Positions 2,866-43,898 of a stretch of 43,898 bases of DNA are shown one piece after another. The DNA is from a virus. The notes beneath the pieces were generated by a model. That model saw nothing but the letters and a program-made list of their open reading frames with translations, had not been told where the DNA came from and searched no databases. The translations under genes and the position numbers were made by a program. How positions within the stretch are numbered: position 1 is the first letter of the stretch; every line of letters starts with the position of its first letter. The stretch is taken from positions 1 through 43,898 of IMG/VR virus record IMGVR_UViG_3300028045_000032. One strand, given 5' to 3'.

Positions 2866-4820
2866 CAAAAGAATATTTACCAATAGGTGAGAAGAAAGGA
2901 AAGTTTCATCGTTTCAATTCTAAGAAAGAATTAGACGACCGTTTTATGGAACATTATGATCTGTTTGAACGGTACAGGCAGAATAAGGAGCAGCACATTA
3001 GGTTTTTCAATAAGGACGGAGTATCTCGTACAATAAACGATTACGTTCGGGATAGTGTTGATCGGATGAATGAGTACCATTTGAAACCGAGTCATAAGGA
3101 CGATTGGCAGAACAACATGTTTGATCCAGTTACGCGGAACAAGTTGATAAGTATTCTAGCAATAATTGCTGGGTCGCGACTGAAGTTGGATTTAGTTATC
3201 AAACCGAAAAGTATTTTCACTAAGATGAAGACTAAGGTTAGACGAGACGTGATAGCTGACTTGTTGGAAAGCGCGAACGACCACAATAACCTTTTAATGG
3301 AAACAGTATGGGAGATGTACACAGCTATGAGCGAGGGTACTGTTATTGGGTTTGAGGGCTGGCGCCAAGGCGAGCGTGAGGTAGAGTACGTCAAAAGTTT
3401 TAATCCTGATACAGGAGAGAAGGAAACAGAGAAAGTTCGATCAGATTTATGGGACGACGTGTACGGATGTATCGTTCCGACAGAGGAGTTTTTCCCTGAG
3501 AACATTTGGGTTAACAGTTTCCGGAAAGATGTACAGCGATGTTTCTGGGTTAGGGAGATGTCATTCGCAGGATTCCAGACAGAGTTCGGTGCTTATCCTA
3601 ATGCTGATAAAGTTAGACCGGCGAGTTATTTCATTAAGCAAGACGATTTCGAATGGGGTATAAGTGAGAACGTTTACTCTGACAACGTGGAGATCATGCA
3701 GTATTACGATGAGGTCGATGACAAGTTAGGGATGTGGGCTAATGGGGTAGAGATTTATTACGGATGTTTACCATGGAACCATAAACGGTTGCCGTTCTGG
3801 GTATCGCAATTCGAACCTATTCATCATCAGTTTCTATACGGTAAAAGTTTACCAGATAAACTGATGGGCATGCAGGACGTGAACAACGCTATATTGAATA
3901 ATATTTTAGACCAGTTATATATCAGTTTGAACTCACCGATATTTGTTGACGGGGACTTCGACTTAGAAGACGGGTTCTTGGAACCGAAACGTATTTACAA
4001 CTTGGAACCAGGTAGTCGGGTACAGAAAGGCCAGCTTGGTAGCGTGGACCCTACATCGTTCCAGGTACTAAGTTTGCTACGGAAATCAATGGAAGAGAGT
4101 AGTATCAGCGCGCAGGCGCAAGGTGTACCGAGTGGTGGACGGAAGACAAAGTTCGAGGTCCAGCAACTTACAGAAGGCGCAATGCAGTTGGCGAGTTTAT
4201 TCTTGCAACTATACGAGAGCGCGTTCCGGGACAAGATGTTGCTCAGAACTCCCAACGTTCTTCAGTATTATTCGATGGCTAGACCAGAGAGGGACAAGGA
4301 TGAACGGTACCGGTACATTGAGATTGATACACAGTTGAGTAACGGTCAGAAAGGAACAAGGAAGATCCAGGTCGTTGAGAGTAAGGGCGATATCCCAGGG
4401 AAGGCTGATCAGATAAAAATGATTGAAGAGGAGACTGGTAAACCGTTTAATGCAGCAGAGACTAACGTTCAACCTGTGTTCATTACAAAAGACTGGTTGC
4501 TACATCGTGGGTACGAGATGGAATTCAAAGTTGTTGCTAACAGTTCAGTTAAAGACAGTGAGGTTCAGAGACGTAACAACGATATGGCTTTCTATCAGAT
4601 CGCGAACGGCGACCCTCGGTACAACCAGGAGAAACTCGCTGAGGATTTGGTGGACGCGTTTGGTAAGGATGAATCGGTACTTAGTAAACAGGGTAAGGTA
4701 GCAGGCGCAGCGCAACAGGCTCCGGGAATCCCGGGTATGCCAGGCATGCGAGGGCAACCAGCAGGCGGTCAACCGCCGGCTCAACCAGCTCAACCGGAGA
4801 TCGACTTAGATTTATTATAA
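2862..4820 (+). CDS. Portal protein
   Basis: A 652-aa protein starting inside the terL stop codon (ATGA), so translation is probably coupled. Size and place immediately after TerL fit a large podovirus-type portal, the dodecameric ring through which DNA enters and leaves. The region around residues 325-360 (GKSLPDKLMG, DVNNAILNN) resembles the long crown/stem helices of such portals. The tail is rich in Pro and Gly (PGIPGMPGMRG, then PPAQPAQP), a flexible end. No nuclease or protease domain is fused to it. The family call is by context and overall pattern. Confidence 0.85.
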   Translation: MTKEYLPIGEKKGKFHRFNSKKELDDRFMEHYDLFERYRQNKEQHIRFFNKDGVSRTINDYVRDSVDRMNEYHLKPSHKDDWQNNMFDPVTRNKLISILAIIAGSRLKLDLVIKPKSIFTKMKTKVRRDVIADLLESANDHNNLLMETVWEMYTAMSEGTVIGFEGWRQGEREVEYVKSFNPDTGEKETEKVRSDLWDDVYGCIVPTEEFFPENIWVNSFRKDVQRCFWVREMSFAGFQTEFGAYPNADKVRPASYFIKQDDFEWGISENVYSDNVEIMQYYDEVDDKLGMWANGVEIYYGCLPWNHKRLPFWVSQFEPIHHQFLYGKSLPDKLMGMQDVNNAILNNILDQLYISLNSPIFVDGDFDLEDGFLEPKRIYNLEPGSRVQKGQLGSVDPTSFQVLSLLRKSMEESSISAQAQGVPSGGRKTKFEVQQLTEGAMQLASLFLQLYESAFRDKMLLRTPNVLQYYSMARPERDKDERYRYIEIDTQLSNGQKGTRKIQVVESKGDIPGKADQIKMIEEETGKPFNAAETNVQPVFITKDWLLHRGYEMEFKVVANSSVKDSEVQRRNNDMAFYQIANGDPRYNQEKLAEDLVDAFGKDESVLSKQGKVAGAAQQAPGIPGMPGMRGQPAGGQPPAQPAQPEIDLDLL

Positions 4821-4970: not shown

Positions 4971-5297
4971 ATGTTCAAAAAGTTTTTAATCAGATTGATA
5001 TACAATTTATACGTTGGTAAGAACAGAGATATATTGAAGTTAAGTCCTGAGATGGAATTCAAATGTTATCTGTTCAAGGATCCAGCTTTAGTAGAGGATT
5101 TAATCAAATCAAGGTTAACTGTTCTGACTCTGAAATATTTCGAAGCTACTTCTGAGGCTGACCGATTACGGATCAAAGGTGCGGCAGTAGAACTGAAAGC
5201 TATCAGAGACAACCATAATTTGGCATACCATCTATTAGACAAAGAGAAAGATTCCAAACGAGCGACCGAGGTGTTTCAACGTAAGAAATTTATTTAA
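4971..5297 (+). CDS. Unknown head-region protein, 108 aa
   Basis: Starts at ATG 4971, two bases after the previous stop, in the AT-rich context typical of this genome. Residues about 1-20 (MFKKFLIRLIYNLYVGKN) are hydrophobic and basic; the rest is helical (VEDLIKSRLTVLTLKYFEA, then a charged C-terminal helix). There is no clear membrane segment of full length. It lies between portal and scaffold, so a small head-assembly or connector accessory is plausible. No family recognised. Confidence 0.65.
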   Translation: MFKKFLIRLIYNLYVGKNRDILKLSPEMEFKCYLFKDPALVEDLIKSRLTVLTLKYFEATSEADRLRIKGAAVELKAIRDNHNLAYHLLDKEKDSKRATEVFQRKKFI

Positions 5298-5357
5298 TAT
5301 ATTTGTCGGCAAGTGTCACCGACCAACAAGATAGACATTTACTAATAACGAATATTT

Positions 5358-6083
5358 ATGGATGATGTAAACAAAGAACCCAAAAACGATGATGGTGTTG
5401 TGACACCACCTCAGGATGGTTCACCTGAGAAAAAAGACGGTCAGCAAGAGGAGAATCCTACTCCCAAAAATGACGGAGCTGATGACGGTGAAGTTAAACT
5501 TAGTCAGAAAGAATTTAACGATTTGCAGAAGAAGGCTAACGACTTTGATGGCTTGGTCAACAAGAACAGAGTTAAGGCATTATTCAACAAAGACAAACCA
5601 GAGCCAAAAGAGGACGGTGGGTCTCCCGAGTTCGATGAAGGCAAGATTGCTGAAATCGCTAAACGGGAAGCACAGAGTTTATTCCGGGAAGAACGAAAAG
5701 AATCTTATAAGGTCAACACTGAAAAAGCATTTGATGATTTCTTGAAAGAGAATTCATGGGCTGATAGTGATGAAAAGATCAAAGGGATTTCTAACAGTTT
5801 CAACCCAGGTTCTTCTACTAGTAAAGACGACATCAAACGGTCAATCGAACTAGCAGCGCGCGACGCTTATCCTAGTGAGTACGAGGCTAATTACGCGAGT
5901 AAGGTAAAGGGTCAGGTACTAGCTGAGATGGAGAATAAGCGAGCTGGTGGGATTGGTGGCGGATCAGTTAATCAACTTAATAAAGACACTAAGACGCAAG
6001 CCGAGAAGGAAGGCGACGAAGTATCTAAACGGATGACACGAGATTTACCACCGGGATTTGACTACGAGAAGAAGAAGAAATAA
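5358..6083 (+). CDS. Scaffolding protein (probable)
   Basis: A 241-aa, highly charged, low-complexity protein. The first 45 residues are rich in Asp, Glu, Lys, Pro and Gln, followed by a helical core (LSQKEFNDLQKKANDF; KIAEIAKREAQSLFREERKE). The C-terminus is basic and ends in KKKK. That architecture and its place just before the capsid genes fit a phage scaffold. The basic tail would bind the inner face of the coat protein. A GTCGG/CCGAC hairpin lies in the 60-base gap upstream (about 5305-5323). Confidence 0.75.
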   Translation: MDDVNKEPKNDDGVVTPPQDGSPEKKDGQQEENPTPKNDGADDGEVKLSQKEFNDLQKKANDFDGLVNKNRVKALFNKDKPEPKEDGGSPEFDEGKIAEIAKREAQSLFREERKESYKVNTEKAFDDFLKENSWADSDEKIKGISNSFNPGSSTSKDDIKRSIELAARDAYPSEYEANYASKVKGQVLAEMENKRAGGIGGGSVNQLNKDTKTQAEKEGDEVSKRMTRDLPPGFDYEKKKK

Positions 6084-6523: not shown

Positions 6524-7453
6524 ATGAATTCAGCAGATTACGCCTTACAGGCAGTCAAGGGGATTAAAGAATCTTTTGACAATGCTATCCAATACGGAAT
6601 TGAAGTTTATGCTGACAGCAGAGTTTTCAACATGATCACTACTAGTGAGACTTTTGAGATCTTCACTTCAACTGAAGGTTTGGATGGTTCTAAGGAATTG
6701 GCAGAGCAAGAAACTCCTCCATCATTGAAACTGGAAGACGGTTACAGTGTAACTCTTACTGAGAAGAGATTTGGTGGATCTATCGTTTTACCAGAACAAG
6801 TTTATAGACGAGACGGTAAAGACAACACATTGAAGGTTGAACAATATCTAGTTAGACAAAGAAACCAACTATTGAAAGATAGTAAGTATCTATGGTTAAC
6901 AAGAGCTTTCTTGATGTTAAACGAGGCTTTCGACAGCACTTCAGATTACCTAGCTCCAGACGGAGTAGAGCTTTGCGGTTCTCATACATGGAATTCAGGT
7001 GGAACTTTCACAAATAAAGCAACAGCAAAACTAAGTTCAGCAGCAGTTGATACTGCTATGGAATTTGGTGGAGCTTTCACAGATCCAGCAGGTAAACCAA
7101 TGCCAATGGACTATGACACTATCGTTGTTAAGAAAGGTTCAGACGCAGAACGAGAAGCTATTCGACTATTCGCTAAAGGAATTTCTCCTGTAGCAGTAGC
7201 TGATATCAATATCTATGAAGGAATGTTCACAATCATTTCAACTCCATACATCACAGCAGCTAATAAATACTATTGGTTCATGATGGATTCTAAACACGAA
7301 AGTTGTTTATATCTTGGTATTGGAGAAATGCCAACACTAAGAGAACCTATCCGAGAGAACAACGAAGCAATTAGAACTAATTGTACAGGTTTCTGGAAAC
7401 AGGGAATTAACAACATGCCTTTCGCTATTTACGGATCAGATGGAACTGCATAG
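6524..7453 (+). CDS. Major capsid protein (HK97-like, probable)
   Basis: A 309-aa protein at the coat position after scaffold and decoration genes. It begins with a helical segment (ALQAVKGIKESFDNAIQYG), has the long mixed core expected of an HK97 fold, and carries the phrase GLDGSKELAEQETPP, reminiscent of the E-loop of related coat proteins. Ending is PFAIYGSDG. No delta domain or maturation protease precedes it, so the separate scaffold probably does that work. A strong stem-loop follows the gene (7479-7523). Confidence 0.85.
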   Translation: MNSADYALQAVKGIKESFDNAIQYGIEVYADSRVFNMITTSETFEIFTSTEGLDGSKELAEQETPPSLKLEDGYSVTLTEKRFGGSIVLPEQVYRRDGKDNTLKVEQYLVRQRNQLLKDSKYLWLTRAFLMLNEAFDSTSDYLAPDGVELCGSHTWNSGGTFTNKATAKLSSAAVDTAMEFGGAFTDPAGKPMPMDYDTIVVKKGSDAEREAIRLFAKGISPVAVADINIYEGMFTIISTPYITAANKYYWFMMDSKHESCLYLGIGEMPTLREPIRENNEAIRTNCTGFWKQGINNMPFAIYGSDGTA

Positions 7454-11956: not shown

Positions 11957-12196
11957 ATGGAAAAAGTGACTGCCTTTACAAAAGAAACATTAATTCCATT
12001 TGGTTTGGTCTTATTGATGTTTGGTGGTATTTGGTATATGGCAAAAATGGATGCGAGGATTGATCATAATGGAGAAGAAACCGCTAGGATATGGTCTAGG
12101 TTAGATGATACTCCAACTAGGGCAGAATATAAGGTTATGCAAGAAGATATCGGAGAGATAAAAACTGATCTAAAAACATTGATAGGCAATCGATAG
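11957..12196 (+). CDS. Membrane protein with coiled coil, holin-like
   Basis: A 79-aa protein with one transmembrane segment at about residues 13-30 (IPFGLVLLMFGGIWYMA). It is followed by a polar helical tail that reads as a coiled coil (ARIWSRLDDTPTRAEYKVMQEDIGEIKTDLKTLI). Size and layout match small holin or membrane-accessory proteins next to lysis genes. The M23 peptidase lies 1.3 kb downstream, now separated by the SD-bearing cassette. It could alternatively anchor the two exported proteins before it. Confidence 0.6.
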   Translation: MEKVTAFTKETLIPFGLVLLMFGGIWYMAKMDARIDHNGEETARIWSRLDDTPTRAEYKVMQEDIGEIKTDLKTLIGNR

Positions 12197-20889: not shown

Positions 20890-23800
20890 ATGTCTTTATT
20901 TGAAAAATTTATAAATCCATTCATTAGGTTTGGCCGAAATATAGATGAACAACGCGAGAAAAGTGAGGCGTTGATCGCCAAGAATATAGCAGAAAAAAAA
21001 GAACGTGAAAAACGGTTCGAGTTTAAGGTTGGTGAAGGATTAGAAAAAGAAGGAACAGTGGTAAGACCAGGACCGACTAGAAGGAAATTAGAAATCCCGG
21101 ATGATGAACCAGTTGAGTATTCACTCGATAAACCTTTAGCCGCATCACCCACTCTAGTGGCTAAGAAGATAGTGGAAAAACGAGCGCTAGTTGGTGACGC
21201 GCCAGCCAGACATCCTGGTGATAGACTAAAAGAACTACCCGGTGACGCCCTTAAAGGTACAGGTAATGTCCTAGCTTTAGGTGGTGATATAGCCAAAGCG
21301 GTCGTTAGAGCGCCTGTGAGGTCCATAGTTTCTCTGGGGTTAGAGGCTCCAACGTCTATAATGGAGTTAGTTACCGGTAGAGAGGTTCAGGAGAGTTCAT
21401 ATGTACCTAAAACAAAGTTCGAGAAAATAATATTTGGAGACGAACCAGTCAAGAATGTTTTCAGACAAACGTCTCAAAGATCTAAGGATATGAGAGAGAT
21501 AGCCGCAAAGATGAATATGAATAGCGATCTATCCAGCAGCGCGTCCTTAGCGTTAACACCTATGTTCTACGCCGGGATGGTGGGACTTGATCTATTGCCG
21601 TACGGCGGAGCTAGAAAAAAGGTTAGTCAAAAAGTCTTACAACAAATAGCAGCAGAAACTGGCGACGATGCTATTCTTGCTATACTTAGAACGGAATTCA
21701 AAAACCCCGAGAAAGATCTGAAGCTATTGGCAGGCGCATTATCGGACATGACGAACACTAAAGACGTGGCTGCTACATTGAATGGGTTCAAGGCTGCTAC
21801 TAAACACGTGGGGAACGCGTCTATTATTGACGAAGTAGCAGAACAACCTTTCAGGATTGATTACGGAAAACTAGATGCTACACCGAAAGAGAAACTTGTC
21901 TTACAGTTCTTAGAGAAAGAATCGTTTGAGAAAATCGCAGCCACCAAAGGTGATGTGTTAAAACTTAAAGAAGTAGCACAGAAAGCCGTTGCAGAGGGTA
22001 GTGTTTTAAATAAAGTTATAACTAGAAAAGAAACGAAGGACTTGGCCGTTATTGAACAAAGAACGGTCAATAGGCACGCCGCATTAAGGGAGGTTATATA
22101 CAACCCCAAAACTACAGCCGCAGACAGAAAGGCTATCATGCAAGAGTTTCTTGAGCTGGATGAGAGGTTGTTGTCATATAGTCGAGACTGGGGTAGACGA
22201 GGTAAAATGATGCAATTGGACGTTGCTAATGAAGAACAAAGTGCATTGGAAAACATACTAAAAAAATTCAGAAAACAGGAGGTTGACGTTAACAAACTCA
22301 AAGATGAAATAGCAGAAGTAGATTGGAACGATTACAAGTCTGTAGTAAATTTCTATAGAAGTAAAGTTAAACCTACTTGGAACGAAATAATAACTGAGTT
22401 CAGGTACAATAACATGCTTTCCAATCCTAGAACTACTATGAGGAACTTACTCACCGGCGCAGAACAGGCGTTTGTTGGTGTACCGTTACAGAAAACAGTC
22501 GAAGCATCGCTTGATTTTATGGATTTTTTTGTCAGAGGGAAGAAACGGGAAACGTTTTTCAAAGAAATCCCTAAATATTACAGTGAGCTATTTAAGTCTA
22601 TCCCTAATGGAATGAGAGCGTTCTCTGACGTGATGAAAGGAAACATACCTATTTCTAACCTAGACGTTAAACGGATTCCGACACAGTGGTTTCGGAAGAA
22701 GTTTGGTAAGTTCGGTGACGCTACGATGACATGGCCTAGTAAAACCATGGAAGGTGGCGATAGACTCTTGATGACAATGATCGGAGACGCTGAGAAAGCA
22801 AGGCTACTGCGCCAAGGTAGATCAGTTGAAGAGGCTACTAAGGCTGGCCAGAAACTTGGTGAATATTCTTTATGGAGACAAGGATTGTTCCCTGAGGGTC
22901 AAGGTGCTGTATTAAACAGTATAGATGAGCTAACTGCTGTTGCTGATAGGTTAAGGAAGGTGGCGGGCGGTACATTAAGTTGGGCTATCCCATTCCTAAG
23001 AACACCTATGAACTTCGCTAAACAATGGTTAGAGTACAGCCCCCTAGGTGTAACAACTTTAATCGGTGCAGCTAATAAAAAACAACAACTAGCGAAGTCT
23101 TTAATAGGATCGATGTTCACGTTCAAAGCGTTCACTATGGCGGCGGACGACAGGACTACATGGGCAGCGCCAAAAGACCCAGATGCTCGCTCAGCGTTTT
23201 ACGCTAGCGGGAAGATACCGTATTCAATAAAGATAAACGATAGATGGATCCCAATGATGTTTCTCGGCCCATACGCATACGCGTTCGCATTACCTGCGGC
23301 CGTTAAGTACATGCAAGAAGACAGCCCTAAAGCATTAACTCAAGGTGATACTGCGAAAATAGCAAGCGGTATAGCACTGTCAATGTCGATGCTAAAAGAT
23401 CAAACGTTCCTAGAAGGTATAGATCAAATAATGTCGACTGTAGAGGGGTTAGAAGAAAATGGAATGAGTGCTAGTCTGCAAAAACAAACGGCATTTACTG
23501 GTGGACAATTAGTGCCATTGCAAGGACTTGTTAGGTACATATCAACCATAGTTGACCCTGTGTATAGGGAAGTGGGGAACGAACAACCGTTAATAGACGC
23601 TTTCAAAAGAGATCTACCGTTTTTAAGCAAGAATCTTAATCCATACCTTACGCCAACAGGTGAGTTATCGAGACGGAATTTAAGTAATTATTTATCTCCA
23701 TACAATATAAAGGTTTCGAATGACGACTATCAAAGTATTCTTGACGAAACAACGAAGCTAGCTCAGAACAGGGAGGTCTTAAAGAAGTACGATAAGGCGA

Positions 23801-24303
23801 TAACTAACGAAGCCAAAGGTATCGTTGCTAAATTCTACACTATTCAAAACGATCCCAAAAAATCAGCTGACCAGAAAAAACAAGACACCGGTGAGTTGCT
23901 GGGTAGTGTTAAGGGAGATGAAGTAAAAAACTCAATTGCGTTACAGATTTTAGAAAAGGAATACAACTTGGAATCACTAGGTATTCCAATGTCAACATTT
24001 TTCAAGAGCGATAAAACAGTTGATAAAGCTAGGGTGGCTGACTTGATAGCTGGAGATTTATTGCTATTAGAAGGCAAGGGCGCTAAGGCATTACCACGTG
24101 AAGAGAGAGAAGAAACACTGGAGAGAATGCAGATCATGAGATCGAATGGACTATGGGATGCTAAGGTCTCACAGATGGTGGCACAACGGTTGAGCCAGTT
24201 CGAGCAGGGTGAGACGATAGCTGAGCAACGCGAGAGTGGTAACGAGCCAGATATAAGCGATATCTCTACGGAAGATTTACTCGAAGAAGCATTTTCAAGA
24301 TAA
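20890..24303 (+). CDS. Giant internal virion / ejection protein, 1137 aa
   Basis: The largest gene and the last of the late operon. It is mostly helical with long charged stretches and a few amphipathic segments (GTGNVLALGGDIAKAVVRAP; SSASLALTPMFYAGMVGLDLLP). A central phrase FLRTPMNFAKQWLEYSPLG recalls the 'TP.N' motif of large internal virion and polyvalent phage proteins ejected with DNA. I see no transglycosylase or peptidase motif. It would be packed in the head or tail hub and help DNA cross the envelope. The stop sits just before the shared terminator. Confidence 0.65.
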   Translation: MSLFEKFINPFIRFGRNIDEQREKSEALIAKNIAEKKEREKRFEFKVGEGLEKEGTVVRPGPTRRKLEIPDDEPVEYSLDKPLAASPTLVAKKIVEKRALVGDAPARHPGDRLKELPGDALKGTGNVLALGGDIAKAVVRAPVRSIVSLGLEAPTSIMELVTGREVQESSYVPKTKFEKIIFGDEPVKNVFRQTSQRSKDMREIAAKMNMNSDLSSSASLALTPMFYAGMVGLDLLPYGGARKKVSQKVLQQIAAETGDDAILAILRTEFKNPEKDLKLLAGALSDMTNTKDVAATLNGFKAATKHVGNASIIDEVAEQPFRIDYGKLDATPKEKLVLQFLEKESFEKIAATKGDVLKLKEVAQKAVAEGSVLNKVITRKETKDLAVIEQRTVNRHAALREVIYNPKTTAADRKAIMQEFLELDERLLSYSRDWGRRGKMMQLDVANEEQSALENILKKFRKQEVDVNKLKDEIAEVDWNDYKSVVNFYRSKVKPTWNEIITEFRYNNMLSNPRTTMRNLLTGAEQAFVGVPLQKTVEASLDFMDFFVRGKKRETFFKEIPKYYSELFKSIPNGMRAFSDVMKGNIPISNLDVKRIPTQWFRKKFGKFGDATMTWPSKTMEGGDRLLMTMIGDAEKARLLRQGRSVEEATKAGQKLGEYSLWRQGLFPEGQGAVLNSIDELTAVADRLRKVAGGTLSWAIPFLRTPMNFAKQWLEYSPLGVTTLIGAANKKQQLAKSLIGSMFTFKAFTMAADDRTTWAAPKDPDARSAFYASGKIPYSIKINDRWIPMMFLGPYAYAFALPAAVKYMQEDSPKALTQGDTAKIASGIALSMSMLKDQTFLEGIDQIMSTVEGLEENGMSASLQKQTAFTGGQLVPLQGLVRYISTIVDPVYREVGNEQPLIDAFKRDLPFLSKNLNPYLTPTGELSRRNLSNYLSPYNIKVSNDDYQSILDETTKLAQNREVLKKYDKAITNEAKGIVAKFYTIQNDPKKSADQKKQDTGELLGSVKGDEVKNSIALQILEKEYNLESLGIPMSTFFKSDKTVDKARVADLIAGDLLLLEGKGAKALPREEREETLERMQIMRSNGLWDAKVSQMVAQRLSQFEQGETIAEQRESGNEPDISDISTEDLLEEAFSR

Positions 24304-24306
24304 AAT

Positions 24307-24343
24307 AAATAGTGCCGTAACTCTAGGTTACAGCACTATTTTT
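24307..24343. terminator. Nested bidirectional terminator
   Basis: AAATAGTGC (24307-24315) pairs with GCACTATTT (24333-24341) around an inner GTAAC/GTTAC hairpin (24317-24321 with 24327-24331). A T-run follows on the plus strand and a T-rich tract on the minus strand. It separates the convergent late and replication operons, and the minus-strand nuclease stop codon lies inside the loop arm. Confidence 0.85.
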
Positions 24344-24735
24344 ATCCCGTACTTGATAGCATCATCTTTCGTGATGCTTCTTTTATTTTGTTTTATTTTT
24401 AGTACATGTTCGATATGAATGAAGTAACATTCCGTCTGGTTCTGTGGCATCTCGTACATGATCCCCACGTACGCGTCTGATTCACAGTACACGAACCCGT
24501 CGTATGGTTTAATCCCTAGGCTAGCGTCGGTCATCTTATGCGCATGGCAACTACGCCATGCGCGTTCGAGTGACGGGATCTGCTGGTCCTGGAACTTGGA
24601 GAACGGTACCGTCTTCCCGGTACTGGCTTTCAGTTCGTATGGGAACCTTGGTACTGGGAAGTATTTTTTCATCCACTTCAGGTTTGTAAAAACCTTACTG
24701 ATTTTAGACTGAAATTTAGCTTCGTGTTTATTCAT
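24328..24735 (-). CDS. RecU/Hjc-like resolvase-type nuclease
   Basis: A 135-aa protein with a PD-(D/E)xK-like core: YELKASTGKTVPFSKFQDQQ (residues about 33-52) carries the E-x-K catalytic pair and the 'K-G-K-T-x-P-F' turn seen in RecU and related Holliday-junction nucleases. A later PYDGFVYCES and ECYFIHIEH complete the fold pattern. It probably resolves branched DNA before packaging, in concert with the UvsW-like helicase upstream in the same operon. No first-Asp motif is certain. Last gene of the operon. Confidence 0.6.
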   Translation of the reverse strand: MNKHEAKFQSKISKVFTNLKWMKKYFPVPRFPYELKASTGKTVPFSKFQDQQIPSLERAWRSCHAHKMTDASLGIKPYDGFVYCESDAYVGIMYEMPQNQTECYFIHIEHVLKIKQNKRSITKDDAIKYGIKIVL

Positions 24736-24740
24736 TTTAA

Positions 24741-25367
24741 TTAGAACAAGTCGCTTAATTCAGCGACAAATTCGTCACCTACTTTATTATCTTTGAATAC
24801 GATAAGTTTAATGAACTCACTCAACCATTCATCTTGTTTGTATTCTTTATCAAGATTGAGATCGACCTCAACAATGTCTGCTTCGTTTAATAGTTTAACG
24901 TACATGATAAGAGAGTTTCTATCCTTCTCGTCTAGCTGAACAGATTTCAATAAGTACCCTTTCTCTTCCATGTCCTTTAGTAACTTCTTCTCGTTCTCTT
25001 CCCTTGCGGCGTTGACACCTTTCTGAAACTTGTGGACTTCAACCTCGTTGGCTTTCTTCTTTTCTTCCATAACCTTATCATTATCGTCAGCTAAGATTTT
25101 GATATCCTTAGTAGCTTCATTAAGTTCTTCTTGGATCTTAGCAACTATTGCTTGGATTTTTTTACTAGACTCTTTGATCTGTTCGTCAACGAACTCGTTA
25201 TGTTTCTCAAAGTCTTTGTTAGCTTTCTTAAGTTTATCAAGGATGCTTCTCTTTCTAGTGAACGATTGGAATTCGTCACTACACGATTTCATATCTTTAT
25301 GATACGAACTTTCTCTGTCGTAGGCGTTAAGCACGCTAGCGAGCAACGCCACTTGGTAATTCTTCAT
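24741..25367 (-). CDS. Coiled-coil protein, 208 aa
   Basis: Residues about 30-135 form a long charged coiled coil (KRSILDKLKKANKDFEKHNEFVDEQIKESSKKI...). The C-terminal 60 residues are a small acidic globular part (NEADIVEVDLNLDKEYKQDEWLSEF). Its start overlaps the helicase stop (ATGA), so the two are translationally coupled. It may be a helicase or nuclease partner, or an SbcC-like spacer without the ATPase head. No family recognised. Confidence 0.65.
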   Translation of the reverse strand: MKNYQVALLASVLNAYDRESSYHKDMKSCSDEFQSFTRKRSILDKLKKANKDFEKHNEFVDEQIKESSKKIQAIVAKIQEELNEATKDIKILADDNDKVMEEKKKANEVEVHKFQKGVNAAREENEKKLLKDMEEKGYLLKSVQLDEKDRNSLIMYVKLLNEADIVEVDLNLDKEYKQDEWLSEFIKLIVFKDNKVGDEFVAELSDLF

Positions 25368-26716
25368 ATTAGTTTATTGTGATCTAACCAACCTTTGTCC
25401 TTGTAGAACCTACGTCGTGCAAGAAACTGTCGATGAAAGATCCCGTGCTTATTATCATCGAAATCAATAATCAACGGATGTTTCTTATCGTCAAACAGAC
25501 GCAGTATTCTACCGGCACTTTGGCCAGTTAGAATATTAGATTTTAAGTCGCCAGCTATAATTAAAGTATCTAGCGACGGAATGTTTATACCGGTGCTAAG
25601 CAACGAGAACGTTCCTAACAACACGTTATAGTCACATTTATCATTACGCAAATCTGAAAGGAGTTTTGACCTGTCGTCGTCTTTATCTTTACTTGAGATA
25701 CTATAGATACCACCCTTACTGTCGAGGTACCCTTTAAGGATCTCGTTATGTTTGATCCGTTTCGTTAATATCAGGACCTTACGCCCTTTATCAACCATAC
25801 TGATTGCGATGGCGTAGATGAGCGTGTTCCTTTGTAGCGAATCAACCTGGTCGTCTACCATCTCATGATAGTTATCGCTCATTAGAATCGGTACATCAGT
25901 ATGGTAAGTAATCACTTCGGGTTTGTCTTGAGGGAGTTCTTCATCAACAACGATCCGGCCGAACACGAACTCAATCGCGTTCGTCTTCCCGTCACTTCTC
26001 TCAGGTGTACCACTCATACCGTACAGGTACTTGCAGTTGAAACTCGTGATAACTTTCTCGCGTTTATCAGTGATAAAGTTATGGCACTCGTCGACAATAA
26101 CACACCCGAACTTTTTCCCTAGCGACTCGTAATCGCGTTTCGATAACGTATCGATCATCGCAACCGTCACGTCCTTAACATCGAACTTAGTTCCTGCTAT
26201 CTGTCCAATATCGTAGTCAAACCATATCTTAGATTCTTCTACGAACTGATCAAAGATCGCGCGCCTGTGTACGATAATCAATGTTTTCTGTTGGATATTC
26301 TCAACTAACTTAAGAGATATCAACGTCTTACCGAACCCGGTACCTAGCTTGATTACACCTTCAGTGTTACTAGCAATGTCTTCCGGTACACCTTCTTGGT
26401 ATTCACGAAGAGCAAACCCCTGTACGCTACAGAACTTCTCAACTAACGGTTGTTCAACTGTCTCGTCAGTGTACTCGAACTTACCCAGTAGCGGTATTAC
26501 AAGTGTAATACACCCACGTGGGATGATGAACAAATCACCCTGCTCTTCGTAATACTTAAAGAACTGAGGGATAGCGTACAACGCTCGCATGTTGCCCTTA
26601 GCTGACATGATCTGGTACGTTGGGTTAATCATTGTCAGGAGTTGTTTGACCCTCTGTTTCGTCGGATGGTCCAGCCCCTGGATCAGTAGCTTGTTTGTCT
26701 TCGTTACTTTTATCAT
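25364..26716 (-). CDS. UvsW-like SF2 DNA helicase
   Basis: A 450-aa superfamily 2 helicase. Motif I is GTGFGKT (125-131), motif II VDECH (208-212), motif III SGTP (235-238), and motif VI GQSAGRILRLF near 400. The N-terminal NKLLIQG... INPTYQ... IIPRG matches the accessory domain of UvsW-type enzymes, which rewind and branch-migrate recombination intermediates. This supports the ATG at 26716 even though it overlaps the upstream glycosyltransferase by 92 bases; ATG 26632 would cut this domain off. It likely works with the downstream resolvase-type nuclease in recombination-dependent replication or repair. Confidence 0.88.
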   Translation of the reverse strand: MIKVTKTNKLLIQGLDHPTKQRVKQLLTMINPTYQIMSAKGNMRALYAIPQFFKYYEEQGDLFIIPRGCITLVIPLLGKFEYTDETVEQPLVEKFCSVQGFALREYQEGVPEDIASNTEGVIKLGTGFGKTLISLKLVENIQQKTLIIVHRRAIFDQFVEESKIWFDYDIGQIAGTKFDVKDVTVAMIDTLSKRDYESLGKKFGCVIVDECHNFITDKREKVITSFNCKYLYGMSGTPERSDGKTNAIEFVFGRIVVDEELPQDKPEVITYHTDVPILMSDNYHEMVDDQVDSLQRNTLIYAIAISMVDKGRKVLILTKRIKHNEILKGYLDSKGGIYSISSKDKDDDRSKLLSDLRNDKCDYNVLLGTFSLLSTGINIPSLDTLIIAGDLKSNILTGQSAGRILRLFDDKKHPLIIDFDDNKHGIFHRQFLARRRFYKDKGWLDHNKLI

Positions 26717-30818: not shown

Positions 30819-31172
30819 CTATTTATGTGTTAATCTTTTCATTATTTCTTTTATTACGTTCACTGTGACTGCATTCCCACAACATTTATATCGCTGAGTG
30901 TCAGATACCCCAGCAGTCCAATCGTCTGGGAATCCTTGCAGTCTTTCGCATTCTTTAGGGGTTAGTCGGCGGATAGCATTGTCCCCCTGTATAAAGGTAC
31001 TGTCGGCCTTTGACCCCATACCTACTCGGACTGTTGTACTAAGTTGGGTTTGTGGCCGTGTTCCGTCTGGTTTATCTGTTTCATCAAGTAATCGGTCATC
31101 TTCTCCGATAGGAAATACTTCGGGTCGACGTGTTCCTCTAAAATAGAGCTTAGACTTATTTGTTGTTGACAT
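30819..31172 (-). pseudogene. C-terminal part of a C5 cytosine methyltransferase, -1 frame
   Basis: It holds motif IX (RRLTPKECERLQGFPDDW) and motif X (RYKCCGNAVTVNVI) of a Dcm-type enzyme, in the frame -1 to the upstream half. Residues before about DETDKPDG are probably read from the other frame. The junction at MKQ/TDKPDGT can be explained by a -1 slip in the AAAC run near 31080. An ATG at 31172 could also let this piece be made alone. It belongs with the N-terminal part at 31022-32383. Confidence 0.7.
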
Positions 31173-32383
31173 ATTTTTTCCACTTTAGTTTTATAAATGT
31201 TGACCCAATCTTTTCCATCTCCGATTGAGTAAAAAAGTCCCCCTTTATATGGTTGCACCGCAAACAACAAAGGGCTAGATTTCCAACTTCGTAATGTTTC
31301 TTTGAATCCAGTCTGTCTATTGTCATTCTTTGAGTCTTGTTGTTGTATTTGTCCGATACCTTTGAAAGCATCTCCTCCGTTAGACCACAATAGCAACATT
31401 TCTTCGGTTGGGATTGATACCACTCCACAAACTCCTTCTGTGTTATTTTCACTTCCCAAGAACGCTTCGAGTGTTTCAACTTCTTGTATATTCCCTTTGG
31501 ACTCCTGTCGTAAGTCCTGTGGTTCTCTCTCAATTTCTGAACATTCTTCTCTCTGTATTCCTTGTTCAATTTGCGTGAACAAATCTTGCATTTGCTCGAC
31601 GGATAACTTTTCTGTCTTGCTTTGCTCCATACCCAAAAGAAGTGTTCTTGCGTTCTCGGAAACACTTGCTGACATTTGGTACACTTTTTCGTTAATTGTT
31701 TTTTCATATACATTCATTTTATCACACTTGTCTATTGTCGTCAAGTAGTTCTCATAATTTAATGGAAAAACATTAGGTCGTTTAGTTCCCCTTCTGTTGC
31801 CGACAATGAACACTCGTTCTCTGTTTTGTGGGACGCCGAAATTTTTGCTGTTAAGCACTTGCCATTGACAGTCATACCCCAATTCATCAAGCGTGGAGAT
31901 GATGGTAGTGAATGTATTTCCTTGGTCGTGAGATAAAAGCCCTTTAACGTTCTCAAGCAACAGAAGGCGTGGTTGTTTTTCTTTAATAATCCTAGCGATT
32001 TCAAAGAAGAGCGTGCCTCTGGTATCATTGAATCCACCTCGTTTTCCAGCGATTGAGAAGGATTGACAAGGGAAGCCCCCAACCAACAAGTCAAAATCTG
32101 GTAAGTTTTCTGGTTGAATTTTCGTAATGTCTCCATAGTTTTTGTGGTTAAAATGTTTTTCGTAGACCTGGATTGCGTATTTGTCGATCTCGGAGCAACC
32201 AATACAAGTGGGACTTGTCCTCCCCCCATCCCAAACGAACTCTGTACTGCTGGACTTATCCCTACTGGATTGTATATTCTGTCCCCTTGCCTCTTCGCCT
32301 TTTTGAGTAACATAATCTTCATATGCTTGTTTAATTCCTTCTTCGAATCCTCCGATGCCGGAGAACAATGATATATATTTCAT
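31022..32383 (-). CDS. C5 cytosine DNA methyltransferase, N-terminal part (frame stays open through the HNH gene)
   Basis: Transfers methyl from SAM to cytosine C5, probably against host restriction. Motif I FSGIGGFE (7-14), motif IV GGFPCQSFS with catalytic C106, motif VI LLENVKG (142-148), motif VIII QNRERVFIVG (186-195). Then about 185 residues follow that translate the nested HNH gene in another frame without a stop, and the frame returns to the methyltransferase-like SSILEEHVDPKYFLSEKMT. It ends early; motifs IX and X continue in the -1 frame. Whether a full enzyme is made needs slippage or an editing or assembly error. Start is in the repeated 22-base module. Confidence 0.8.
   Translation of the reverse strand: MKYISLFSGIGGFEEGIKQAYEDYVTQKGEEARGQNIQSSRDKSSSTEFVWDGGRTSPTCIGCSEIDKYAIQVYEKHFNHKNYGDITKIQPENLPDFDLLVGGFPCQSFSIAGKRGGFNDTRGTLFFEIARIIKEKQPRLLLLENVKGLLSHDQGNTFTTIISTLDELGYDCQWQVLNSKNFGVPQNRERVFIVGNRRGTKRPNVFPLNYENYLTTIDKCDKMNVYEKTINEKVYQMSASVSENARTLLLGMEQSKTEKLSVEQMQDLFTQIEQGIQREECSEIEREPQDLRQESKGNIQEVETLEAFLGSENNTEGVCGVVSIPTEEMLLLWSNGGDAFKGIGQIQQQDSKNDNRQTGFKETLRSWKSSPLLFAVQPYKGGLFYSIGDGKDWVNIYKTKVEKICQQQISLSSILEEHVDPKYFLSEKMTDYLMKQINQTEHGHKPNLVQQSE
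31156..31713 (-). CDS. HNH endonuclease nested in the methyltransferase gene
   Basis: A 185-aa homing-type endonuclease. N-terminal zinc finger CTKC...CKIC (residues 11-45), then KKCCYCG (105-110), TIDRLD (131-136) and the final N-x(3)-C-x(3)-CN-H core (GNLALCCLRCNHIKGD, 144-159). It lies in a different frame inside the methyltransferase reading frame, in the region between motif VIII and motif IX. A promoter-like TTGACG-17-TAAAAT lies just before its start. It probably cuts methyltransferase alleles that lack the insert. Confidence 0.85.
   Translation of the reverse strand: MYMKKQLTKKCTKCQQVFPRTQEHFFWVWSKARQKSYPSSKCKICSRKLNKEYREKNVQKLRENHRTYDRSPKGIYKKLKHSKRSWEVKITQKEFVEWYQSQPKKCCYCGLTEEMLSKVSDKYNNKTQRMTIDRLDSKKHYEVGNLALCCLRCNHIKGDFFTQSEMEKIGSTFIKLKWKKYVNNK
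31716..31744 (-). promoter_or_regulatory. Promoter-like boxes before the nested HNH gene
   Basis: On the minus strand TTGACG (31739-31744), 17 bases, TAAAAT (31716-31721). The start would give an almost leaderless HNH mRNA. The boxes lie inside the methyltransferase coding region, so chance is possible. Confidence 0.4.
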
Positions 32384-32387
32384 ATAT

Positions 32388-32756
32388 TTATACCCTATTG
32401 TCAGGGGTGAATACTTTAGGTTCTTCTTGTTTTCTTTTGGCTAATCTCTCTCTTAATAATCCTTCTAACAAATGTAGATAGACAATATTATCGCCTATCT
32501 TCTCGTTAATAAGCTCTTCAGTGATCCGATCAGGTTCAGTCTCGGTCCATTTGATCAGGTCTAACACTGAGACGATATGCTTGGACATGAACCCCCCGAG
32601 CGCTTGCTCTGGTGTACCGCCAAGGATCTCTGCCCCGCGCCGGAAGTTATGGAACCGGTCGCCGTTGGACGCGTACTCAGCTTGTTTGCTATCAAGAGTT
32701 GTAATGACACTGTCATTACGTTCTTTCACTATCTTCATTAGGTCTTGTGAATTCAT
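32388..32756 (-). CDS. MazG-like / nucleotide-modification-associated protein, 122 aa
   Basis: An all-helical protein with AEYASNGDRFHNFRRGAEIL, TPEQALGGFMSKHIVSVLDLI and INEKIGDNIVYLHLLEGLL. This matches a common phage family related in pattern to all-alpha NTP-pyrophosphohydrolases and DUF1599-type proteins. If active it would hydrolyse NTPs or dNTPs; the metal-binding acidic residues are not certain. The start overlaps the previous stop (ATGA). It sits upstream of the methyltransferase. Confidence 0.55.
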   Translation of the reverse strand: MNSQDLMKIVKERNDSVITTLDSKQAEYASNGDRFHNFRRGAEILGGTPEQALGGFMSKHIVSVLDLIKWTETEPDRITEELINEKIGDNIVYLHLLEGLLRERLAKRKQEEPKVFTPDNRV

Positions 32757-33208: not shown

Positions 33209-33412
33209 TTAATTTAATCTTAATACTTTGTGCCAGAACTTGTTCCATCGACTACAGGGTATCTCGTCATGCGTCATGAAAGCGTCCGCTACCATGGCGT
33301 AGATACCTTCTTTGGTTCTGTGGGCTGTGACACTAACACATTCATCGTCTATGTACAGTTCGGCTATGTAATAGTTACATGGTTTCTCAATTGTGAATTT
33401 GTATGTTTTCAT
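33209..33412 (-). CDS. Small unknown protein, 67 aa
   Basis: Begins MKTYKFTIEKPCNYYIAEL, then beta strands (DDECVSVTAHRTKEG) and a helix (YAMVADAFMTHDEIPCSRWNKFW). It is the first gene downstream of the large structured RNA, whose 3' side runs into its leader. The start follows AACAT without SD. No family recognised. Confidence 0.6.
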   Translation of the reverse strand: MKTYKFTIEKPCNYYIAELYIDDECVSVTAHRTKEGIYAMVADAFMTHDEIPCSRWNKFWHKVLRLN

Positions 33413-33424
33413 ATGTTTAATAAC

Positions 33425-33915
33425 CTTAACAGGTGCTGTCAGCAGTTGCTAAGTTGTTGCGTACGCTTGACCGCAAGAGGGACGAATCCCTATAACACCT
33501 GCTGGGATAACTAGCTAACTGGGAAAAGCGTTTAGAACCAATGTCAGTGGTTACATAGATAACTCAATCAGTGTTTGTAGAATAGGCGAGTTTTATTTCC
33601 ACTAATTATTATCTCGGCTATTCGCGTCATCCTTGTTGGCCGTGAAAGGATAATCACATTTAATCTAACGCTTTCCTTAGTTAACTAACCACCTTAACCA
33701 GCAAAGCGAGCGCCTCGCTGGTATTATGATTGCGAAAGGGAGAAGCCATGCTTAGAAACTCCCTCACAACAGTAAAGACTGTTTGCTTAATGTGACTTGC
33801 AGTCCCGGAGGGTGGGATCTACACATTAGAACGTTGCCCTTTTCATGTTCCTTCTCAAGGAATTCTGTTGCTAGTTAAGGTGGTTAGTTTAATTCGTAAC
33901 TGTCCGTCTTACGGA
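33425..33915 (-). ncRNA. Large structured non-coding RNA (about 490 nt), class unknown
   Basis: No gene fits in this gap between minus-strand genes. A perfect 16-bp helix joins 33683-33698 to 33874-33889 and encloses a 175-nt domain. That domain contains AGCGAG/CTCGCT (33705-33719), GGGAG/CTCCC (33738-33763), AACAGT/ACTGTT (33768-33783), TAATGTG/CACATTA (33788-33828) and TTCCTT/AAGGAA (33848-33862). A second long helix joins 33522-33536 to 33664-33676 around GAATAG-G-CGAG/CTCG-G-CTATTC (33580-33623) and ATCCTT/AAGGAT (33629-33651). Further stems: CAGGTG/CACCTG (33430-33501), CTTG/CAAG and AGGGA/TCCCT (33466-33491), TCCGT/ACGGA (33903-33915). The strand is inferred from the operon. The size and complexity recall ROOL or GOLLD RNAs. 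Confidence 0.75.
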
Positions 33916-33918
33916 TAA

Positions 33919-34179
33919 TTATTCACTCACTTTCTCTACTAAAGTCTTATCAAACAGCTCAATCTCGCCTTTCGTTGCAAGCTCGTCTGCCAAGTACTGG
34001 ATATTTTTAGTGTAATCCGTTTGTGTTTTAGTAACACCGTTACCGTACCCAATTGACTGACCTACTGTGTAAGCAACAGCCGAGGTGATTGCATTTCTGT
34101 ATACAATAACAACGACCGTGTTCGCAACTGTCAAAACAATCGCTACTACCAATAAGAACTTTGACATTTTGTCTAACAT
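33919..34179 (-). CDS. Membrane protein, 86 aa
   Basis: An N-terminal transmembrane segment at about residues 7-27 (FLLVVAIVLTVANTVVVIVY), then a Gly/Tyr-rich link and a polar helix (LADELATKGEIELFDKTLVEKV). It is probably anchored with the C-terminus outside or inside depending on the Lys at residues 4 and 7. It lies immediately upstream of the large RNA. Function unknown. Confidence 0.6.
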   Translation of the reverse strand: MLDKMSKFLLVVAIVLTVANTVVVIVYRNAITSAVAYTVGQSIGYGNGVTKTQTDYTKNIQYLADELATKGEIELFDKTLVEKVSE

Positions 34180-34195: not shown

Positions 34196-34549
34196 TTATT
34201 TAAATAAGGCGAACGGATTAGGGGCAGACGCTTTCTCTGTCTGTCTTTTTATATCAGCCATACAGATATCCATTATGTTCTCTTCACCAGCGGCGGAACC
34301 ACTACCTACAACACGTTCCCCGGTATCAGCTATAAGAGGTTCACCACTTACAACTTGCAGGTTGAAGATATACGCACCAGCTTTGTAATACTCCGTTGTT
34401 GTTTTGCAGGTCTCTTTGTAAGCACGCATTGCGTTATGCATCTTTTTAATAGCCACGATCGCCAGGTGCTGTGCTGCTCGCACGTCTTTCAATGTAGCTT
34501 TCTTTTCCTTTGTCACTTTTTTAGGTTCTACTTTCTTTGTTGGTTTCAT
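34196..34549 (-). CDS. Unknown protein, 117 aa
   Basis: A very basic N-terminus (KPTKKVEPKKVTKEKK), then a helical core (VRAAQHLAIVAIKKMHNAMRAY) and a C-terminal part with Gly/Ser and three Cys. It could bind nucleic acid through its Lys-rich arm. The start context is TTTTATG. No family recognised. Confidence 0.55.
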   Translation of the reverse strand: MKPTKKVEPKKVTKEKKATLKDVRAAQHLAIVAIKKMHNAMRAYKETCKTTTEYYKAGAYIFNLQVVSGEPLIADTGERVVGSGSAAGEENIMDICMADIKRQTEKASAPNPFALFK

Positions 34550-35271: not shown

Positions 35272-35613
35272 TCAACTGATAATGTTTTGTAGCTTTCTAA
35301 CAAGCCGTTCGTTAGCCTCGTAAAGCTGAGATTGAGAGGCGAATCTTTTACTGCCCCAGAAAGTCATATCGGCCAACAATGCGTGGATAACTTCGTGTTT
35401 GGCGGAGTTTTTTACTTGAGTAGCAGTCATCTCTATATCTACATTGAAATGAAAGTATAGAACCCCGCTCTCAACCTGACTTAAATCAATCTCGGCCCGA
35501 CTACCACTATCTGTTTCAGTCCCAAACCTAATCCCGTAATCGTCGATCTTGAATCTATCAAGCCAGCGTAAACATTCTTTCTTGAACAAATTGAACCGTT
35601 CTTTTTTTGTCAT
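35272..35613 (-). CDS. SprT/WLM-like zinc metallopeptidase domain
   Basis: A 113-aa protein with KHEVIHALLADM, an HExxH zinc site (about residues 77-81) on a helix after a beta sheet (VLYFHFNVDIEMTA). A late acidic/aromatic helix (YEANERLVRKLQ) may supply the third ligand. The SprT/WLM type is linked to DNA-protein crosslink repair, which suits the replication operon; other short HExxH phage proteins exist. The start overlaps the CHC2-like gene stop (ATGA). Confidence 0.65.
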   Translation of the reverse strand: MTKKERFNLFKKECLRWLDRFKIDDYGIRFGTETDSGSRAEIDLSQVESGVLYFHFNVDIEMTATQVKNSAKHEVIHALLADMTFWGSKRFASQSQLYEANERLVRKLQNIIS

Positions 35614-36113
35614 AGATAATCTTTTATTATTTTAAGCGACCGTTCGAAGGTCGTGTCGTACAGTTTCATGACCAGGTCAATCACTGATCCCCCGCAACTC
35701 TCCCCGAAATCGTACCAACTATTAGAGTCAGTGTACACAACAAGCGATGGGGCTTTCTCGTCACGCCACGGCGCCTTGTATTGCAGACGATTGATACTAG
35801 TGCTAGCCGGGTCGCCCAAGAACTCCCGGCATTCGACCTTTTTCATCTCGTCTAAATCGTATTTATGTTTCCGGTACCGAGCATCGTGTTTTGATCGGAT
35901 ATTGTAAAAATGTTTTCGTTGCCGTTCTAAATCTTCTATCCGGTCATCAGCCATTTCAATCAGTACATCAATTAAGGGGAAATCTTTCTCGGTTACTTTG
36001 TTTTTTGATTTAATTGTTTTATCCCTAGCAACACGCGCGTGGTACAGTTGGTCGTCAAAGTCTGCAATCTTCTCACGGCACATGATATTTATTTGTTTTG
36101 AATCATCGATCAT
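35610..36113 (-). CDS. CHC2-like primase accessory without zinc cysteines
   Basis: A 167-aa protein. The N-terminal 105 residues are a charged helical or coiled part. The C-terminal 60 follow the DnaG zinc-domain template (YKAPWRDEKAPSLVVYTDSN, then WYDFGESCGGSVIDLVM). The CHC2 Cys/His ligands are replaced (Y, W, D, E), leaving only one Cys. It may be a degenerate template-recognition module for the adjacent D5-type enzyme. It is coupled by ATGA overlaps on both sides. Confidence 0.6.
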   Translation of the reverse strand: MIDDSKQINIMCREKIADFDDQLYHARVARDKTIKSKNKVTEKDFPLIDVLIEMADDRIEDLERQRKHFYNIRSKHDARYRKHKYDLDEMKKVECREFLGDPASTSINRLQYKAPWRDEKAPSLVVYTDSNSWYDFGESCGGSVIDLVMKLYDTTFERSLKIIKDYL

Positions 36114-37480
36114 AGAGGTATTTCTGTTAAGTCTTCGATCTCCTCAACGCCTTGCTCGGCCAGAGCGTCTTTCTCAAACGCGTTCAACATCCTTATGTTC
36201 CGGCCTCGTACTACCCCGTTCTCCCCGTCCCGGTTCCGAGTGGATTTAACCCCCGGTATATTATTCGTCAAGTCTCGGAAGAATTTATGTGAGCTGAACG
36301 GTTTCTTGTTATTGACACTGCACCAGTCTTTGTACTCAGAGTACAGCAAATCTGTCCCAGTGAACGCCTCGTCGTCAACCGTGTACCCGCCATAGAACCA
36401 TTGCATAACTCCACTGATCTCTTTCTTGAACTCTTCCATGGTGTGCTGACTAGCAGACGACGGTGTGAATATGAAATTGGCGGCCGTTAACCGTTTCGCG
36501 CCCTGTATTGCCCACGCCATGATACCCGGTAACTCAGCCGCTAATTTCTTACCCAAATCTTTGTCCTGTTCCTCTGGAGTAAAACGTCTATAGAAGGGCA
36601 GCAAATGTAATCGCCGTATCAACCCGTAATTAAGGTCGCTGAACTGAGGGAGTTTATTGGTAGAGAAAACGTATTTTGTACGTGGTTTGAACGTGAACGG
36701 GTCACCGAACTTCCTCTCTCCCGTGACTTGTTCACCTGTAATAAGTTGTTTGAACACGTCCGCGGATATATACGTACTCTCGTCTTCTGTAGCGATATTC
36801 AACCGTTTCCCAACAAGGTCGGCGGTTGCCCAACGGTCAGTTGTAAGACGCCGTACGCTCATACTAACAACGTATTTGTCGCCTATGATCAACCGAATTA
36901 GGTCGGTTACTTTACTCTTACCATTACTACCACCACCAACCAGGAAGAACGCCGCCTCGGCTTTGAGGGTACCAAGAATAAAGTACCCAAACATCTCTTG
37001 TAACAGTTCACGCAACTTCGTATCGGGTTTGTTAACATCATCCTTATATACTAAACTAGTAGCAAGAAACTTATCGAAATGAGGTGTTGGGCATGCCGTG
37101 TCAGCGAAATCAAACTCAAACCCTAGCGTACAGATAACGTCTCTTGTGAATTCTAATGTCCGGAACTGTTTCAAATCGTATAAACAGTCAGCGAACGCAA
37201 GAGTATTGAAATCCTCATGGTCCGCGCGACGAATACATTCCATCCCCAATAACTTAGTTAAATCCCTTAGCTTCCCGTGCGAGATATTCTTCAATGGGAA
37301 TTTCGTCTTGATAAAGTCCCAGACCAATCGCATCAAGTCTTTGTTACTAACAAAATCATAGTACCTGCCGTTATATAACACAAAACTGTCGTAGTCTTCC
37401 AAGTAGACTAAATCATTAGCGAACTTATCGCTCATTAAAAAAGCTGAAATCATTTCGTAGTCTGTGAAACTTTTTGGCAT
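36110..37480 (-). CDS. D5-type SF3 helicase (primase/helicase)
   Basis: A 456-aa superfamily 3 helicase. A D5 N-like region covers about 1-165, then Walker A GGGSNGKSK (182-190), Walker B LNIATEDE (227-234) and sensor/motif C VFSTNKLP (271-278). A C-terminal DNA-binding winged-helix-like part follows (DLLYSEYKDWCSVNNKKPFSSHKFFRDL). It unwinds DNA at the origin or fork; a catalytic AEP primase domain is not visible. It is the main replication protein and sits 390 bases from the DnaA-box region. No DNA polymerase is encoded, so it must recruit the host's. Confidence 0.85.
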   Translation of the reverse strand: MPKSFTDYEMISAFLMSDKFANDLVYLEDYDSFVLYNGRYYDFVSNKDLMRLVWDFIKTKFPLKNISHGKLRDLTKLLGMECIRRADHEDFNTLAFADCLYDLKQFRTLEFTRDVICTLGFEFDFADTACPTPHFDKFLATSLVYKDDVNKPDTKLRELLQEMFGYFILGTLKAEAAFFLVGGGSNGKSKVTDLIRLIIGDKYVVSMSVRRLTTDRWATADLVGKRLNIATEDESTYISADVFKQLITGEQVTGERKFGDPFTFKPRTKYVFSTNKLPQFSDLNYGLIRRLHLLPFYRRFTPEEQDKDLGKKLAAELPGIMAWAIQGAKRLTAANFIFTPSSASQHTMEEFKKEISGVMQWFYGGYTVDDEAFTGTDLLYSEYKDWCSVNNKKPFSSHKFFRDLTNNIPGVKSTRNRDGENGVVRGRNIRMLNAFEKDALAEQGVEEIEDLTEIPL

Positions 37481-37870: not shown

Positions 37871-37899
37871 ATTATACCCCGGAATTGTACCCTAGTCAA
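37871..37899 (-). promoter_or_regulatory. Strong promoter of the replication operon
   Basis: Minus strand TTGACT (37894-37899), exactly 17 bases, TATAAT (37871-37876), the best consensus match in the window. The leader to the first start codon is about 125 nt and holds a T-rich hairpin that might attenuate it. Confidence 0.75.
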
Positions 37900-43754: not shown

Positions 43755-43760
43755 AATCGG

Positions 43761-43883
43761 TGTGTACACTTGTGTACACTAGGATTCATATTAAGGTAAT
43801 AAAAAAAAAATAATATATATATATATAAGAAAAAAAGATAAAAAATATATAAAGTTAAAATGAAGTGTACACAAGTGTACACA
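43761..43883. other. Iteron-flanked AT-rich element (candidate origin or packaging site)
   Basis: The block 43761-43780 is two tandem 10-base units with GTGTACAC cores. The block 43864-43883 is its perfect reverse complement. Thus four GTGTACAC dyads, paired one helical turn apart, flank 83 bases that are almost wholly A/T with long A and TA runs. This is the architecture of a protein-bound unwinding element. It lies about 0.8 kb before terS once the circle is closed, so a packaging-site role is also possible. Confidence 0.7.
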
Positions 43884-43898
43884 CCGGACTGTAAATTT

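Follow-up and report, generated by a model that had tools for sequence, protein, structure and literature searches.

The DNA examined is the 43,898-base virus record of an uncultivated phage, and "the window" refers here to this stretch at its full length. Its structural genes lie on the plus strand and its replication-type genes in an arm read from the minus strand, where 506 nt at 33413–33918 are bounded exactly by the stop codon of the upstream gene and the ATG of the downstream gene. The main features are as follows.

1327–2865, plus strand, terminase
2862–4820, plus strand, portal
20890–24303, plus strand, internal virion protein
24328–24735, minus-strand arm, resolvase-like protein
25364–26716, minus-strand arm, SF2 helicase
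31022–32383, minus-strand arm, C5 cytosine methyltransferase
33209–33412, minus strand, downstream gene, 67 aa, no known family; its ATG is one limit of the RNA
33413–33918, minus strand, noncoding structured RNA region ("window RNA"), no ORF; fold z −5.04, 0 of 100 shuffles
33919–34179, minus strand, upstream gene, 86 aa with a hydrophobic N-terminal stretch, no known family; its stop codon is the other limit
35610–36113, minus-strand arm, CHC2 zinc-ribbon protein
36110–37480, minus-strand arm, D5-type primase
37871–37899, minus strand, promoter-like TTGACT-17-TATAAT, read by eye, which could drive an early transcript

The original prediction described about 500 bases without a gene, and the exact gene-to-gene fit bears this out. 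An overlooked coding frame, named there as counter-evidence, was looked for inside 33413–33918 and none longer than 45 aa from stop to stop was found, except for frames that enter from outside (one on the plus strand that runs to 33514, and the first part of the downstream gene). The proposed placement of a structured noncoding RNA in an early or replication operon is supported as well, both by the D5-type primase, CHC2 zinc-ribbon, SF2 helicase and resolvase-like neighbours and by the finding of noncoding, structured stretches in this arm in two of the relatives. Besides, across all arms of the 43,898-nt window a Shine-Dalgarno-like motif stands before just 2 of the 49 starts, a share lower than the 10% found at random, and this scarcity suggests a Bacteroidota-like host.

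Folding statistics confirmed that 33413–33918 is a structured noncoding stretch. The minus strand reaches −154.7 kcal/mol (z −5.04) and the plus strand −158.9 (z −4.54), with 0 of 100 shuffles as good in either case; the sense strand is thus better by z, although the total energy is slightly lower on the plus strand. The genome in general folds well, however: 86 windows of 506 nt gave a mean z of −1.3 (sd 1.7), and a few others reach about −5 to −6 (only 10 shuffles each). The region stays outside the top 20 of a 240-nt z-score scan, probably because short windows cut its long stems. Concomitantly, the plus strand of 31453–31692 within the methyltransferase gene was seen to fold strongly (z −8.2, 12 shuffles only). 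The fold of the window RNA consists of three successive branched domains, A (207 nt), B (176 nt) and C (about 100 nt), whose parts are listed below, all on the minus strand.

33903–33915, minus strand, perfect small hairpin UCCGU-AAG-ACGGA, immediately following the stop codon of the upstream gene
33683–33889, minus strand, domain A, a long closing stem enclosing about five hairpins; z −5.4
33868–33889, minus strand, 5' arm of the domain A closing stem, 22 nt, 95% complementary to 33683–33704, outer 16 bp perfect
33683–33704, minus strand, 3' arm of the same stem, pairing with 33868–33889
33512–33687, minus strand, domain B, closing stem 33667–33687 with 33512–33532 enclosing several hairpins; z −5.2
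33413–33515, minus strand, domain C, a closing stem and three 5-bp arms meeting in a four-way junction; z −2.6
33431–33500, minus strand, core of domain C, weakly fitting tRNA cloverleaf spacing (2-1-4-1 linkers), its loops not tRNA-like

The perfect 16-bp long-range stem of the original prediction (33683–33698 with 33874–33889) is present, as the outer part of a 22-nt stem at 95%. Throughout the 43,898-nt window, this stem and one at the genome end are the only perfect inverted repeats of at least 15 bp with a loop of 80–500 nt, while the longest such stem in 15 shuffled genomes is at most 14 bp. The second predicted stem also proved real (33512–33532 with 33667–33687, 21 nt at 81%). When the closing stem is kept, the domain A interior scores z −1.0 against shuffled interiors, that is, its inner hairpins are not above chance, and the domain B interior scores z −2.1. 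The signal beyond chance is therefore the three long closing stems and not the number of helices: the argument that more than a dozen helices could not be chance holds for the closing stems but is overstated for most inner hairpins, which singly do not exceed it. With an ensemble diversity as high as 99.5 over the 506 nt, individual hairpins are uncertain. Taken by domain, B and C favour the sense strand in folding and A is neutral.

The window RNA matches no Rfam 15 family, either at the gathering level or at E<=10, so the search against the ROOL, GOLLD, OLE and raiA models that had been suggested for it yielded nothing up to E 10. The search itself works, as it recovers a partial ROOL in Brochothrix phage ADU4 (L343). 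No tRNA or tmRNA was detected by ARAGORN, and no tRNA occurs in the whole 43.9 kb. Riboswitches and group I and group II introns were rejected for want of an Rfam match, and a manA match was dismissed as noise (15.9 bits against a gathering threshold of 55.2, overlapping the upstream gene).

Searches for homologues of the window RNA were likewise negative. None was found by blastn in phages and plasmids, collections that may omit near-identical records, and the records of relatives gave no sequence match. A covariance model built from the domain A sequence alone had no match over 352 kb of relatives, nor when run unfiltered on two candidate loci. A 17-mer pattern gave 30 matches in viral contigs, about the chance number for that collection size by a rough estimate. 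As no homologue was found, the standing of the window RNA as a new RNA family is unproven. The protein baits 34196–34549 and primase alone yielded nothing, the terminase alignment retrieved mainly distant phages, and the phages collection held no relative of the portal.

Alignment-based scans of IMG/VR identified three relatives, G022, G052 and G055, together with fragments, part of which belong to these same viruses (G051 is 99.96% identical to G052, and L185 100% identical to G022). G022 (portal 54%, primase 41% identity) ends where the RNA region would be expected. G052 (portal 50%, primase 37%) and G055 (portal 49%, terminase 47%, primase 39%) each carry a noncoding structured stretch in the same arm, at 5154–5418 (z −7.14 sense versus −5.21 antisense) and 32161–32430 (z −4.08 versus −2.88), respectively, and in both the sense strand is better by z and by energy. 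Neither RNA resembles the window RNA by sequence or by the domain A covariance model. Since their positions relative to neighbour genes differ among the window phage, G052 and G055, these RNAs are analogous by arm and not strictly syntenic. A further large noncoding hairpin lies in the same arm of G052 (6660–6800, L195), and in G055 a short glycine-rich reading frame directly follows the RNA (L283, about 12024–12140, minus strand). The noncoding end of the window carries a perfect 23-bp inverted repeat (43758–43780 with 43864–43886), and long inverted repeats likewise lie at the genome ends of G055 and G052 or close to them.

The G055 RNA weakly matches (E 0.07–0.3) noncoding, unannotated regions of four phages, namely Enterococcus phage VEsP-1, Brochothrix phage BtpYZU01 and two Latilactobacillus sakei phages. 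The motif GTGGCGGAAWAGGTAGACGC is common to the G055 RNA and all matched regions, and the phage copies additionally have GGTGCAAATCC in common; on a 7-bp acceptor stem, the former may be read as a leucine-tRNA-like D-arm and the latter as a T-arm. From acceptor to acceptor the element spans 80–258 nt with a variable insert, and the G055 copy has lost the T-loop. Further copies were found in Brochothrix phages BL3, YZU02, ADU4 and A9, in two Bacilli genomes, in Bacillus phi3T and in Paenibacillus Pd_22F. The loci, in phages and Bacilli genomes from several genera of Bacillota and in G055, are as follows.

L283, 12161–12430, minus strand, the G055 copy
L336, 1509–1712, tRNA-shaped element
L337, 1496–1680, tRNA-shaped element
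L338 and L339, around 1505–1584, tRNA-shaped element
L340, L343, L344, L345, L346, L347, L348 and L349, further loci of the element

For covariation, the middle of the alignment was removed by hand and the ends were picked by motif and acceptor-arm complementarity. Among 8 distinct copies, 10 of 16 pairs are altered on both sides and 95% of cells pair, a count that is partly built in for the acceptor stem, given how the ends were picked, but not for the D- and T-stems. The covariation score is 0.70 versus 0.24; 0 of 500 shuffles reach it and sliding controls give 0.03–0.13. Besides true tRNAs, no Rfam 15 family covers the elements in the loci examined, and a literature search, which was not exhaustive, found no name for them. 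The putative tRNA-shaped element is widespread in phages and absent from Rfam. The hosts of the phages in which it occurs, apart from the present lineage, span at least five genera (Brochothrix, Enterococcus, Latilactobacillus, Bacillus and Paenibacillus). The element covaries strongly, and its function is directly testable because several carriers, phi3T, BL3 and A9, are cultivated laboratory phages. In the unrelated phages the gene neighbourhoods are unlike that of G055; in ADU4 the element lies within about 1 kb of the partial ROOL, a drum RNA match and tRNAs. The sharing of the G055 motif with noncoding regions of unrelated phages and the covarying stems show that this lineage carries bona fide structured RNA in this arm.

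The best explanation, to which we give about an even chance, is a functional structured RNA within the early transcript, most likely trimmed into a stable noncoding RNA that acts in trans. Since no promoter or terminator beyond chance stands beside it, the minus-strand RNA would be transcribed within a long early transcript, which may begin at the promoter-like sequence 37871–37899. Its three multi-branched domains follow one another along the RNA; the closing stems would protect them and keep them apart, domain C, with its cloverleaf-like form, could serve RNase P or other tRNA-processing enzymes as a point of attachment, and the trimmed RNA would persist and act during early infection. We infer trimming, stability and action in trans from the closed multi-domain design, from the sense-strand bias in relatives and from the relative's RNA having homologues elsewhere. 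Against this stand the lack of any homologue found for the window RNA, the chance-level interior of domain A, the slightly lower plus-strand energy and the fact that the RNAs of the relatives cannot be aligned with it.

The main rival is a cis-acting element between cistrons of the early mRNA, which would protect or process the flanking genes or uncouple their translation without ever becoming a separate RNA. The missing promoter and terminator and the exact position between two genes of one operon would suit such an element. Nevertheless, cis-acting intercistronic elements usually need far less than 506 nt in three closed domains, and the G055 RNA holds an element that recurs in unrelated phages in other gene contexts, which makes this account possible but rather unlikely.

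A quite improbable reading makes the window RNA a far-diverged member of the same tRNA-shaped class as the G055 RNA, a class that would be undescribed and widespread, with the anticodon arm replaced by a large variable structured insert; in this lineage the RNA would have lost its D-arm and T-loop sequences and grown into a 0.5-kb three-domain early-infection RNA. The two phages are related (see above for the portal, terminase and primase), in the G055 RNA about 20 bp of closing stem surround five hairpins within 196 nt, much like the design of domain A in 207 nt, and the T-loop is already gone in G055 itself. The GTGGCGGAAWAGGTAGACGC D-arm motif next to a 7-bp acceptor is, however, absent from the window RNA, where the best match needs 8 edits, and from G052. 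A T-arm with a 7-nt T-loop before the 3' acceptor strand is absent too, the loop at that place being 3 nt in domain A and 4 nt in domain C. Coarse tree distance between domain A and the G055 RNA is not significant, with 9.5% of shuffles as close. Domain C does fit the 2-1-4-1 cloverleaf linkers, at about 2% chance for such a length with a descriptor picked after the fold, but shuffled genomes yield about two such geometry matches per strand. Membership in the class is not claimed, because the D-arm is absent, the tree distance is not significant and the cloverleaf fit is weak and post hoc.

There is a slim chance that the inverted repeats act at the DNA level, as cruciforms in a replication origin or recombination site. 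Both strands fold well, and replication genes and a resolvase-like protein share the arm; yet the region has neither a direct-repeat (iteron) array nor an AT-rich stretch (G+C about 0.42), the sense strand is clearly better folded in the relatives, and it is at the genome end that the longer inverted repeats lie. The decayed remnant of a mobile element or intron within the operon would account for presence and sequence varying between relatives, but it is very unlikely given the failure of the group I and II intron models and a perfect 16-bp long-range stem that decaying sequence would hardly retain.

The presence of different structured RNAs in the early arm of lineage members would suggest a fast-evolving slot that the phages keep. 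Among known systems, the tRNA-shaped phage element resembles the window RNA as a noncoding phage RNA whose closing stem surrounds several hairpins, found in the same arm of a relative; the window RNA differs in having neither the GTGGCGGAAWAGGTAGACGC D-arm nor the T-loop. ROOL and GOLLD, the ornate phage RNAs with which the original prediction had compared it, did not prove to be its class. ROOL (RF03087) is likewise a large multi-branched noncoding phage RNA, and is often, not obligatorily, near tRNAs (PMC12286853), whereas the window RNA has no tRNA island nearby and no Rfam match at E<=10. Many GOLLD RNAs, also large and ornate, exceed 800 nt and have a conserved 3' region (PMC12286853), whereas the window RNA is about 500 nt long and does not match the Rfam model holding that region. 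OLE and raiA are large structured bacterial RNAs of the same size class, with host contexts unlike the present one and models that the window RNA does not match. Altogether, large structured phage RNAs are few, and the window RNA, with its different sequence, is a further candidate.
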